64,000 bases of DNA from Halanaerobiaceae bacterium (GTDB lineage Bacteria; Bacillota; Halanaerobiia; Halanaerobiales; Halarsenatibacteraceae), in assembly GCA_003553485.1 (NCBI GenBank), contig PWEJ01000044.1, forward strand, positions 1 to 64,000, read 5' to 3'. Positions 8 through 35,779 of this stretch are shown piece after piece (the stretch's first letter is position 1; each line of letters opens with the position of its first letter). Made by a program: the position numbers and the translations under genes. The notes below the pieces were generated by a model. It saw nothing but the letters and a program-made list of their open reading frames with translations. It was not told the DNA's origin and did no database searches.

Positions 8-84
8 TGGCACGGGCAGGAGGACTTGAACCCCCAACACCCAGATTTGGAGTCTGGTGCTCTAGCCAATTGAGCTATGCCCGT
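8..84 (-). tRNA. tRNA-Trp (anticodon CCA)
   Basis: The minus strand folds into a complete cloverleaf: a 7-bp acceptor stem (ACGGGCA with UGCCCGU), a D arm beginning GCUC, an anticodon stem CCAGA/UCUGG around loop CUCCAAA, and a T arm with UUCAAGU. The anticodon is therefore CCA and the discriminator base is G, both as expected for tRNA-Trp. The 3' CCA is encoded (plus-strand tgg at 8-10). It lies 30 nt downstream of the tmRNA on the same strand and is probably co-transcribed and processed with it. Confidence 0.97.
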
Positions 85-114
85 GCGGAAAATGGTTTTA
101 ATTCAATTTTAATT

Positions 115-470
115 TGGTGGAGGTGGCGGGAATCGAACCCGCGTACTGCACAACTCATCCCCTGACCTCTACGTTCATAGTCTGTCTATTCGTCTTACGC
201 CCTGAACTCCGACAGACAGGATTTCAGGACGCCAGCCTGTTAAATGTCCCTTTCTCCTACAGGCTTCAGAGAAAGGTTAGTCTGCTTTTTATGACACTCA
301 GCTACAAACGACAGACACGTTTGCAGTGAGCGCTAACTGCCTTAAGCGGCAGCTAGGGCGTAATTATTATCTTCTGCAGATAATTTTAAAGTGCCAGTAT
401 TTTACGGGTGAAAGGCGTCCCCGGAACGCTGTCAGAGGATTCACTGCACAGGCGAATCCAGTACACCCCC
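115..470 (-). ncRNA. ssrA: tmRNA (trans-translation RNA)
   Basis: The 5' end (minus strand from 470) reads GGGGGUGUACUGGAUUCG and the 3' end carries the tRNA-like T arm with GGTTCGA-type sequence and terminal CCACCA, so the ends pair as an alanine tRNA-like domain. The length, about 356 nt, is normal. The tag reading frame is at 377 down to 342: codons for AEDNNYALAAA then TAA, the resume codon being GCA. The tag targets stalled products for proteolysis. smpB, its protein partner, lies directly upstream in the same direction. The mature 5' end is about 36 nt inside the predicted transcript and would be made by RNase P. Confidence 0.97.
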
Positions 471-512
471 GGACAGTTAATCCCCTATTCACAATCATCT
501 TTTCGCATAATC

Positions 513-541
513 ATTATAAATCAAAAAGCATGCTATGTCAA
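513..541 (-). promoter_or_regulatory. sigma-A promoter of ssrA
   Basis: On the minus strand a consensus -35 TTGACA (536-541) and a consensus -10 TATAAT (513-518) are separated by 17 nt. The predicted start near 506 lies about 36 nt before the mature tmRNA 5' end. The promoter overlaps the space just after the smpB stop codon, so ssrA can be transcribed independently of smpB. Confidence 0.88.
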
Positions 542-32739: not shown

Positions 32740-34755
32740 TCACCTCTGTGCTAATTCTTCTTCCAATTCTGCTATTTCATCTCTAATCTGAGCTGCAATC
32801 TCAAACTCAAGATTGTCAGCAGCTGCTTCCATTTCTTCCTCTAATTCGATTATTCTATTGGTTAATTCCTGGCTGCTTAATTCCTCCAGGGACAGAGTCT
32901 CCTTCTCCTTATTGTCTTCGCTACCATATTGGCCCTGCTCTTCTTTTATGACCATTTCCACCGGTCTAACTACCTCCCGCACCGGTTTATCGATGGTGCT
33001 GGGGGTGATATTGTTTTCTCTGTTAAATTTTTGCTGCTTCTGACGTCTTCGCTCTGTTTCTTCTATTGCCCTGGTCATGGAATCTGTCATTTTATCGGCG
33101 TACATTATTACCCGCCCTCTTACATTCCGAGCGGCTCTACCAATGGTCTGGATCAAAGAGCGAGTGGAGCGCAAATATCCTTCTTTGTCAGCATCCAGGA
33201 TGGCAATAAGTGAGACTTCGGGAATATCCAGTCCCTCCCGCAGCAGGTTAATGCCCACCAGCACATCAAATTCTCCTAAACGCAAATCTCTAATTATCTC
33301 CGATCTTTCAATGGTATCTATATCAGAATGAAGATATCTCACCTGGATACCAGCATTGGCCAGATAATCTGTTAAATCCTCGGCCATATTTTTGGTTAAA
33401 GTGGTAATTAAAACCCTATCTCCCTGCTCTTCTACAGCTATTCTAATTTCTTCTAAAAGATCATCTATCTGATTTTGCGTTGGACGCACCTCCACCTCGG
33501 GATCTACTAATCCCGTCGGTCTAATTATCTGCTCTACTATCTGTTCACTATGTTTCTCTTCATAGGGCCCCGGGGTAGCCGAAACATAAATAGCCCGGGG
33601 AACAAGTTTTTCAAATTCTTCAAAGTTCAGCGGCCTATTATCAAGGGCCGAAGGAAGGCGAAAGCCAAAATCGACTAACTTCTCTTTGCGAGAACGATCC
33701 CCTTTATACATCCCGCCAATCTGGGGTATGGTCATATGGGATTCATCGATGATAACTAAAAAGTCATCGGGAAAGTAATCCAGGAGAGTATTTGGGCGAG
33801 AACCAGGAGGTCGGCCATCAAGATGGCGAGAATAGTTTTCTATACCACTGCAATAGCCCATCTGCTCCAGCATCTCTAAATCATAACTGGTTCTCTGTTC
33901 CAATCGCTGAGCTTCAACAAGTTTGTCCTGGGCTTTTAATTCAGCCAACCGCTCCTGTAATTCCTGGCGGATATTTTTCAGGGCTCTTTCTATTTTATCT
34001 TCTGGAGTAACAAAGTGGCTGGCAGGAAAGATAGTAAATTCTTCATGCTCTGCTAAAATTTCGCCGGTCAGAGTATCTATTTCGGTTATTCTTTCAATTT
34101 CTTCATCAAAGAGCTCCACCCTGACAGCAATATCACGGTAGGCAGGGAATATCTCTAATACATCGCCCTTGACGCGAAAATGTCCCCGCGAAAGATCAAT
34201 ATCATTTCTGCTATATTGCATCAGGGCTAATTCTCTCACTATTTCCGGCCGGGGCTTTATCTCACCAACCTGCAGAGAACAGGAGAGATCGAGATAATCC
34301 TCCGGTGAACCCAGACCATAAATACAGGAAACACTAGCTACTATTAAAACGTCGTCTCTTTCAAAGAGCGAGCTGGTAGCAGCTAATCTTAACTTATCAA
34401 CTTCTTCATTAATAGAGGCATCCTTTTCAATATAAGTGTCAGTCTGGGGTACATAAGCTTCTGGCTGATAATAATCATAATAACTGACGAAATAACCTAC
34501 GGCATTGTCAGGAAAATACTCCTTAAATTCACTGGTTAACTGAGCAGCCAGAGTTTTATTATGGGCCATTACCAGCGTCGGTTTCTGCACCTCTTCAATA
34601 ACTGAAGCCATGGTATAAGTTTTGCCGGTGCCGGTAGCACCTAAAAGAGTCTGATGACGATAATTATTTTCAATCCCCTCAACCAGTTTATCTATTGCCT
34701 GGGGCTGGTCACCCCGGGGCTGATAGGGGGCCTGTAATTGAAAATTATCAGCCAT
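32740..34755 (-). CDS. uvrB: Excinuclease ABC subunit B
   Basis: Helicase-like subunit that verifies damage and recruits UvrC. 671 residues. Walker [15 protein letters not shown] (about 38-51), the beta-hairpin [20 protein letters not shown] (about 92-111), IIDESH box (about 338), the C-terminal helicase motifs [22 protein letters not shown] (given in part as [11 protein letters not shown]), and the UVR domain at the C terminus (about 630-670). ATG 34755 follows GAGGTGATGG. First gene of uvrBAC, behind its own promoter. Confidence 0.97.
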
Positions 34756-34810: not shown

Positions 34811-34838
34811 ATTATATAACAATACTGTTGTTTGTCAA
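34811..34838 (-). promoter_or_regulatory. Sigma-A promoter of uvrBAC
   Basis: Minus strand: TTGACA (34833-34838), 16-nt spacer, TATAAT (34811-34816). The spacer contains AACA-N4-TGTT (34818-34829), an inverted repeat in the right place for an operator. No classical LexA box (GAAC-N4-GTTC) is present. Confidence 0.83.
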
Positions 34839-34867: not shown

Positions 34868-34896
34868 AAAAAAAGACCTTCCCACAACAGGGAAGG
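34868..34896 (-). terminator. Rho-independent terminator of the sRNA candidate and of cysE
   Basis: CCTTCCC/GGGAAGG (34877-34883 with 34890-34896, extendable by a G-U and a G-C pair) with a 6-nt loop, followed on the minus strand by seven T residues (34868-34874). Confidence 0.92.
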
Positions 34897-34972
34897 CCTA
34901 GGCAGGAGTTATCAGGTTTGGGGTTGGGGGGAATCTTGATAACTCACTACATCTGCTGCATAATTTTATTGT
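34868..34972 (-). ncRNA. Candidate C-rich small RNA between cysE and uvrB
   Basis: No gene lies in 34756-35057, but the minus strand has a near-perfect promoter (34979-35007) followed, about 70 nt after the predicted start, by a terminator. The transcript would be about 105 nt. It contains a 9-bp hairpin GAGTTATCA/TGATAACTC (34937-34945 with 34906-34914) whose 22-nt loop is C-rich (CCCCCC and CCCC runs), well suited to base-pair with Shine-Dalgarno sequences. There is no open frame of note. It could alternatively be the 3' UTR of cysE. No known RNA family is recognised. Confidence 0.55.
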
Positions 34973-34978
34973 GACCTA

Positions 34979-35007
34979 ATTATATTATAACCTAGTTACT
35001 TTGTCAA
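34979..35007 (-). promoter_or_regulatory. Consensus sigma-A promoter of the sRNA candidate
   Basis: Minus strand: TTGACA (35002-35007), 17-nt spacer, TATAAT (34979-34984), both boxes perfect. It does not drive uvrB directly, since a terminator and a separate uvrB promoter lie between. It stands 50 nt after the cysE stop codon. Confidence 0.85.
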
Positions 35008-35057: not shown

Positions 35058-35735
35058 TTAAATAGTAAATTTAAGGGGAATCTCTTCTTCCTCAATAGAA
35101 GTCTGCCTTTTATTTTGTTCTTTCAATTGGGCAATTTCCTCTTCCAGTTCAGCAAGCTTTTCCCAGACTGGGTCAGGTAAATTATCATGTTGCAGATCCC
35201 TTTCAGCATGAATTTTATGACCGTTTTGCTTGACAACTCGTCCAGGAATACCTACAACAGTGGAGTTGGCAGGCACAGCATTTAATACCACTGCTCCAGC
35301 TCCAATTTTAACATTATCTTCTACTTTAAAGGAGCCTAAAATCTTAGCTCCTGCTCCAATAACTACGTTATCTCCAATAGTCGGGTGTCTTTTACCTTTT
35401 TCATGACCTGTACCACCTAGAGTTACTCCCTGATACAAAGTGACATTTTTACCTATTTCACTGGTCTCGCCAATTACCACGCCCATCCCATGGTCTATAA
35501 AAAAGCCTGGACCAATTTTAGCTCCGGGATGAATCTCTATTCCCGTCAAGAGCCTGGCCAATTGAGAGATCAATCGAGGCAGAGTCCTAAGGCCTAAATT
35601 ATAAAGTTTATGGGAAATTCTATGGACAATAATGGCATGCAGGCCGGAATAGGCTAAAAGTGCTTCCATTATATTATTAACTGCCGGGTCTCGGTCAAAT
35701 ATCGCCTTTATATCGGCTTTTATGGCTGAAAACAT
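35058..35735 (-). CDS. cysE: Serine O-acetyltransferase
   Basis: Acetylates serine for cysteine synthesis. 225 residues. The C-terminal half (about 65-190) is a left-handed beta-helix of hexapeptide repeats: [22 protein letters not shown], where the His/Asp pair is the active site, then [21 protein letters not shown] and VVGIPGRVV, all typical of CysE. A Glu-rich coiled tail follows. ATG 35735 with AGGGG 9 nt upstream is preferred over the TTG at 35744. It is a single-gene transcript. Confidence 0.95.
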
Positions 35736-35779
35736 CTTTATCAACCCCTAAAGTTAAGTGTTTTACTATGCTTTATTTT

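Follow-up and report, generated by a model that had tools for sequence, protein, structure and literature searches.

C-rich, single-stranded seeds that bind Shine-Dalgarno sequences have been established for the small RNAs (sRNAs) RoxS and FsrA (PMC10433868), and RNAIII and RsaE likewise direct C-rich seeds against Shine-Dalgarno regions (PMC9217828). An sRNA may also carry a coding function, the precedent for a dual sRNA/small-protein RNA being SR1 of Bacillus subtilis (PMC8501984). For the order Halanaerobiales, a full-text search of a limited set of open papers found no sRNA studies.

The candidate RNA considered here is encoded in the window, which denotes the whole 64-kb stretch of DNA that was analysed. 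In kind it would be an ordinary sRNA, and as a family it is new. Judged from its sequence features and their conservation, it very probably represents a real, previously unlisted sRNA gene family. The source bacterium is presumably a salt-loving organism from a soda lake, and we take the sediments behind the two other assemblies of its genus discussed below (G001 and G003) to be of soda-lake origin as well.

The locus and its signals

The gap between cysE and uvrB carries on its minus strand a promoter, followed after about 105 nt by a strong terminator, and a separate uvrB promoter lies beyond (Table 1). This arrangement had been proposed in an earlier note on the same DNA, which gave no strand, and it was borne out at each point: both neighbouring genes lie on the minus strand, the promoter matches the TTGACA-17-TATAAT consensus at 12 of 12 positions, and the terminator is a hairpin of 10 bp with a 6-nt loop and a U7 tract. 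Perfect TTGACA/TATAAT sites with a spacing of 16-18 nt occur only three times in the window. In a 320-kb sample taken by stretches from the rest of this genome, the same search recovered eight; a tRNA gene follows one of them, and several others stand just upstream of apparent gene starts. The third perfect site of the window (541) is placed before the tmRNA gene; the window start (11-541, minus strand) holds a tRNA (11-84) and the tmRNA (115-470). Because no other strong terminator was found between cysE and the sRNA promoter, the cysE mRNA probably ends at the terminator of the sRNA.

Table 1. Positions of the genes, signals and RNA segments of the cysE–uvrB region within the window
Feature	Position	Strand	Remarks
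cysE (serine O-acetyltransferase), upstream neighbour	35058..35744	-	flanking-gene reading
-35 hexamer TTGACA of the sRNA promoter, 17-nt spacer, within conserved CTTGACAA	35002..35007	-	same place in G001, G003, G004, G005
-10 hexamer TATAAT of the sRNA promoter	34979..34984	-	kept in G001, G003, G004; weaker (GTAAAAT) in G005
Predicted small RNA, ~105 nt	34868..34972	-	5' end predicted from the -10 box, 3' end from the U-tract
5' arm of the 9-bp stem (GAGUUAUCA)	34937..34945	-	confined to the window's genus; 8 bp in G001 and G003
22-nt C-rich loop, mostly unpaired	34915..34936	-	fold prediction
Conserved core TTCCCCCCAACCCCAAACCTGATAACTCCTGCC, 33 nt	34901..34933	-	31-33/33 identical across three genera, single copy per genome
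3' arm of the stem (UGAUAACUC), inside the conserved core	34906..34914	-	core continues into Shine-Dalgarno-complementary ACUCCU
Intrinsic terminator hairpin, then U-tract to 34868	34874..34899	-	arms vary, pairing kept in relatives
Separate uvrB promoter TTGACA-16-TATAAT	34811..34838	-	conserved in G001, G003
uvrB, downstream neighbour in 5/5 genomes	32740..34755	-	flanking-gene reading

Conservation in related genomes

The conservation search covered the window's own genome (G000) and 60 relatives. The sRNA was found, with E values of 4e-10 or lower, in four further genomes of its family, two from the same genus (G001 and G003) and one from each of two additional genera (G004 and G005), so that the unit is present in five genomes of three genera. 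uvrB follows it in all five. cysE precedes it in four (the window, and G003, G004 and G005, in which its C-terminal end is seen), and the contig of G001 ends at this place. No copy was found in G002 (77% complete, cysE and uvrB both undetected); for G007, where cysE lies at a contig end, the lack of a copy may be only apparent; G006, with cysE and uvrB on different contigs, has no core, and the viral contigs held no copy. As far as could be seen, the gene family is restricted to part of one Halanaerobiales family.

Conservation is concentrated in the core TTCCCCCCAACCCCWAACCTKATAACTCCTGCC, which shows no difference within the genus; the G004 copy carries two substitutions and the G005 copy one inserted A. 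A search at up to 3 mismatches gave no other copy in the genome. The fourfold-degenerate sites of uvrB are only 32-43% identical in the same genome pairs (76% in the close pair G001-G003), and measured against them the conservation of the core in the distant pairs has a binomial P of ~6e-10 to 4e-15. The intergenic flanks, promoters apart, hardly align even within the genus. A promoter beginning with CTTGACA precedes every copy, and every copy ends in a terminator whose arms change in sequence yet keep pairing, which argues that selection acts on the terminated transcript. By these comparisons, the locus is a single-copy RNA gene under selection. The earlier note had counted a lack of conservation of the promoter and loop in relatives as a refutation; promoter and C block are conserved in four of them.

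Hairpin and core

The earlier note also described a 9-bp hairpin with a 22-nt C-rich loop. The window copy is predicted to fold in this way, with a 4-bp outer helix in addition, and the fold of the whole RNA (-31.7 kcal/mol) is well below that of shuffled sequences (-18.5 +/- 2.9; z = -4.6; 0 of 200 shuffles as good). However, the stem is not a conserved feature. Its 5' arm is present in G000, G001 and G003 and gone in G004 and G005, whereas its 3' arm AUAACUCC (AUAACUC) is retained exactly in the latter two even without a pairing partner. Hence the selected object is the linear sequence and not the hairpin, and the conserved element, as far as sequence comparison can tell, is a linear sequence of two parts, namely the C-rich block and the adjoining AUAACUCCUGCC.

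Fold prediction finds the C-rich segment accessible: the mean unpaired probability of the seed is 0.90-0.99 in G000, G001, G003 and G004, and 0.67 in G005, where some of the C block would be paired with upstream sequence belonging to an inserted open reading frame (ORF) region. In the window's genus the stem is predicted to bury the second segment, which bears ACUCCU; in the predictions for G004 this segment lies open, and for G005 mostly so.

A covariance search in the Halanaerobiales had been suggested for the hairpin. Built on the hairpin it would mislead, the core being conserved as sequence. A model of the core plus the terminator (R1), searched in 101 genomes, gave the five genomes scores of 82-91 bits, and no match elsewhere exceeded 28 bits. 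The next-best match (28 bits, G059, L186) consists of a C-rich stretch and a terminator between unrelated flanking genes and is at most an analogue, and those of the lower matches that were read looked like coding or terminator-only sequence. At the G059 locus (L186:1200-1570), the C-rich TTTCCCCCCAACACCCAAATCTTCCCCC stands before the terminator and downstream of a sequence that by eye resembles a c-di-GMP riboswitch; perhaps it belongs to an analogous C-rich RNA.

Alternative explanations

The window copy has no ORF of note, as had been claimed, but this does not extend to the whole family. Between its promoter and its core, the G005 copy contains an ORF of 43 codons with AAGGGG as a Shine-Dalgarno sequence before the ATG, so the G005 transcript may be a dual-function RNA. 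It could be argued from this that the RNA is mainly a small-protein mRNA, or an SR1-like dual-function RNA, whose ORF was lost in most lineages, and G008 does have similar ORFs of ~38 aa in tandem, G017 a single, more distantly related one. The ORF is nevertheless absent from the other four copies, the conserved part is the non-coding core, and the ORFs of G008 and G017 have no C-rich block adjoining them, all of which makes this explanation unlikely. The peptides themselves (~38-43 aa, MKGLKKFxMIEDxNY...) are preceded by good ribosome-binding sites (L004:1367-1498 in G005; L176:1504-1772 in G008; L196, minus strand, in G017), and the family had no Pfam or NCBIfam match over threshold.

The constant linkage to uvrB on the same strand raises the question of whether the RNA is a cis-acting leader or attenuator, normally terminated and reading into uvrB under some condition. 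Upstream of the terminator, however, there is no G-rich segment to act as an antiterminator by capturing its 5' arm, and only ~5-6 bp would be available to the C block in competing for its 3' arm (sequence read by eye); the best fold keeps the full terminator. Moreover, uvrB has a perfect promoter of its own, and its distance from the sRNA differs greatly between genomes. Attenuation of uvrB is hence improbable. A different kind of uvrB control may exist in the order at large. A conserved AT-rich palindromic motif (TTTAAATTARTAATNATTATTGATATAATA, Fur/PerR-box-like by eye) lies upstream of uvrB across the order and overlaps a possible promoter (L033, L035, L041, L050, L051, L056, L057 and others), and many of these leaders have an SOS-box-like AACATANATTCRC after it; the motif may point to metal or oxidative control of uvrB.

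With about the same low probability, the element could be just the 3' end of cysE, that is, a terminator with leftover 3' UTR and no separate RNA. The lack of another strong terminator ahead of the promoter is what this explanation would predict, but it leaves unexplained a promoter that every copy keeps between cysE and the core, and the near-invariance of the core far above the neutral rate, since a terminator by itself gives no reason to preserve the 33 nt ahead of its hairpin.

Least probable is a DNA or protein-binding element. This could be the plus strand (GGTTTGGGGTTGGGGGG), which is prone to form a G-quadruplex, or a site in DNA or RNA (a sponge included) to which a C-binding protein attaches. 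The long G runs would suit it, as would the exact conservation of sequence rather than structure, typical of protein sites too. But the promoter, the terminator and the non-G-run part AUAACUCCUGCC are conserved as well, and on the plus strand no promoter is conserved (the window has a single 10/12 site there, whose -10 region differs in G001).

Proposed function and search for targets

For a promoter-driven, terminated, single-copy RNA whose near-invariant, C-rich core has little structure, the best explanation is a trans-acting antisense sRNA. We place the probability at roughly 0.6 that it acts from its own promoter by pairing of the C-rich segment with G-rich target mRNAs, mainly at Shine-Dalgarno regions. 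Transcription, action in trans, targets and the involvement of Hfq are all inferred here from sequence. The RNA would be transcribed from the sigma-70-type promoter in the cysE–uvrB gap and end at the intrinsic terminator. First contact would be made by the unstructured C-rich UUCCCCCCAACCCC with G-rich stretches of mRNA, mainly Shine-Dalgarno regions, and the adjoining AUAACUCCUGCC would extend or replace this contact. In the window's genus, the added stem of 8-9 bp would display the C block in a loop and hide the second segment. Pairing would then lower the translation or stability of the targets, possibly with the help of Hfq.

That the core stays linear and C-rich despite the changed fold around it is as expected of a pairing seed. 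Against the seed model stand two fold predictions, namely the burial of the Shine-Dalgarno-complementary second segment in the window's genus and the partial pairing of the C block in G005, as well as the outcome of the target searches described below. Matches to the Hfq family occur in all five sRNA-bearing genomes, and a chaperone would thus be available. Two such matches each were seen in G000, G001 and G003, and none in G006; G004 has five, which include C24:23672-24128, with two in tandem.

The loop had been described as able to pair with ribosome-binding sites of the GGAGG type. Its accessibility is supported, but target prediction did not single out a partner. Duplex energies were computed on a sample of 322 start regions of the window's genome; the C block did no better than composition-matched shuffles, 28 of 30 of which reached its mean. 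The second segment beat 30 of 30 shuffles, a result that is partly built in, as the starts had been chosen by anti-Shine-Dalgarno fit. Near complements of both segments were sought in five genomes, the best places among the matches being read, and start-anchored patterns were sought as well. No target with extended complementarity recurred between genera among the best near-complements listed, the start-anchored patterns and the 322 start regions. The ~4-fold excess of GGCAGGAGTTAT over the reversed control looks, in the places read, largely like in-frame coding sequence, mostly for Ala-Gly-Val.

Near-complements at individual gene starts include GGGGTTCGGGGGGAT, 4 nt before the GTG of an fmt-like gene in G001 and G003 (L082 and L081), and, in G000, the start sites of a thioredoxin-reductase-like gene and an IclR-like gene. 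We take these three gene names from a reading of the translations by eye. The ribosome-binding site of the fmt-like gene, GGGGTTCGGGGGGA (L081 in G003, L082 in G001), comes close in both genomes to a full complement of the sRNA's C block. Elsewhere in G000, at C163:13399-13410 on the minus strand (L098), an exact 14-nt complement to the second segment (AGGCAGGAGTTATC) falls within the leader of a gene that resembles a reductive activator of corrinoid enzymes and adjoins a methyltransferase-like gene; this could be a target or chance.

The trans-acting reading admits a bolder form, which we regard as possible though doubtful. According to this form, the RNA would be family-specific and built on a linear seed that is unusually long and scarcely varies, made up of a C6-A2-C4 block and an anti-Shine-Dalgarno-like ACUCCUGCC. 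Everything else would be remodelled from lineage to lineage: a stem in one of them conceals the second part, and a small-protein gene inserted in another makes the RNA a dual-function riboregulator. Interest lies in the length and invariance of the seed, in the architecture that changes around it, and in the absence of any described sRNA from the order in the searchable papers. Going by those papers, the RNA would be a first well-conserved sRNA candidate for these salt-loving anaerobes, and its 33-nt core offers a concrete probe for metatranscriptomes. The natural series of copies with the stem, without the stem and with an inserted ORF would also allow one to ask which part of a C-rich sRNA is essential.

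Comparison with known RNAs

At the gathering score, an Rfam search of the window matched only the tmRNA and the tRNA, leaving the sRNA without a family, and permissive thresholds gave nothing for it either. The best sub-threshold match is SbrA of Listeria (RF01489), at 24.2 bits against a gathering threshold of 45 bits (E 0.0024, 121-nt search). Both RNAs have ACCCC...AACUCC followed by a terminator and a C-rich loop on a short stem. However, the SbrA stem is absent from the alignment, the match is mostly terminator, and the 45-bit cut-off is not reached.

As in the C-rich UCCC-type class, to which the earlier note had likened the loop, the sequence specifies an independent short unit with a conserved promoter and intrinsic terminator, and its C-rich seed is accessible according to the predicted unpaired probabilities. 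Similar to RoxS/RsaE of Bacillus and Staphylococcus, it is a short RNA with single-stranded UCCC-type seeds, and in both cases the seed segments number at least two, of which one is concealed by a stem (PMC9217828; PMC10433868); its core sequence and neighbours are different, and it gave no Rfam match to that family at threshold. FsrA, the iron-induced sRNA of Bacillus, likewise relies on C-rich motifs in single-stranded form to bind Shine-Dalgarno sequences rich in G (PMC10433868), but the Rfam search gave no sequence match between the two. The likeness to SR1 of Bacillus subtilis is one of kind: SR1 is an sRNA that also codes for a small protein (PMC8501984), and the same might hold for the G005 copy, whereas the window copy has no ORF.
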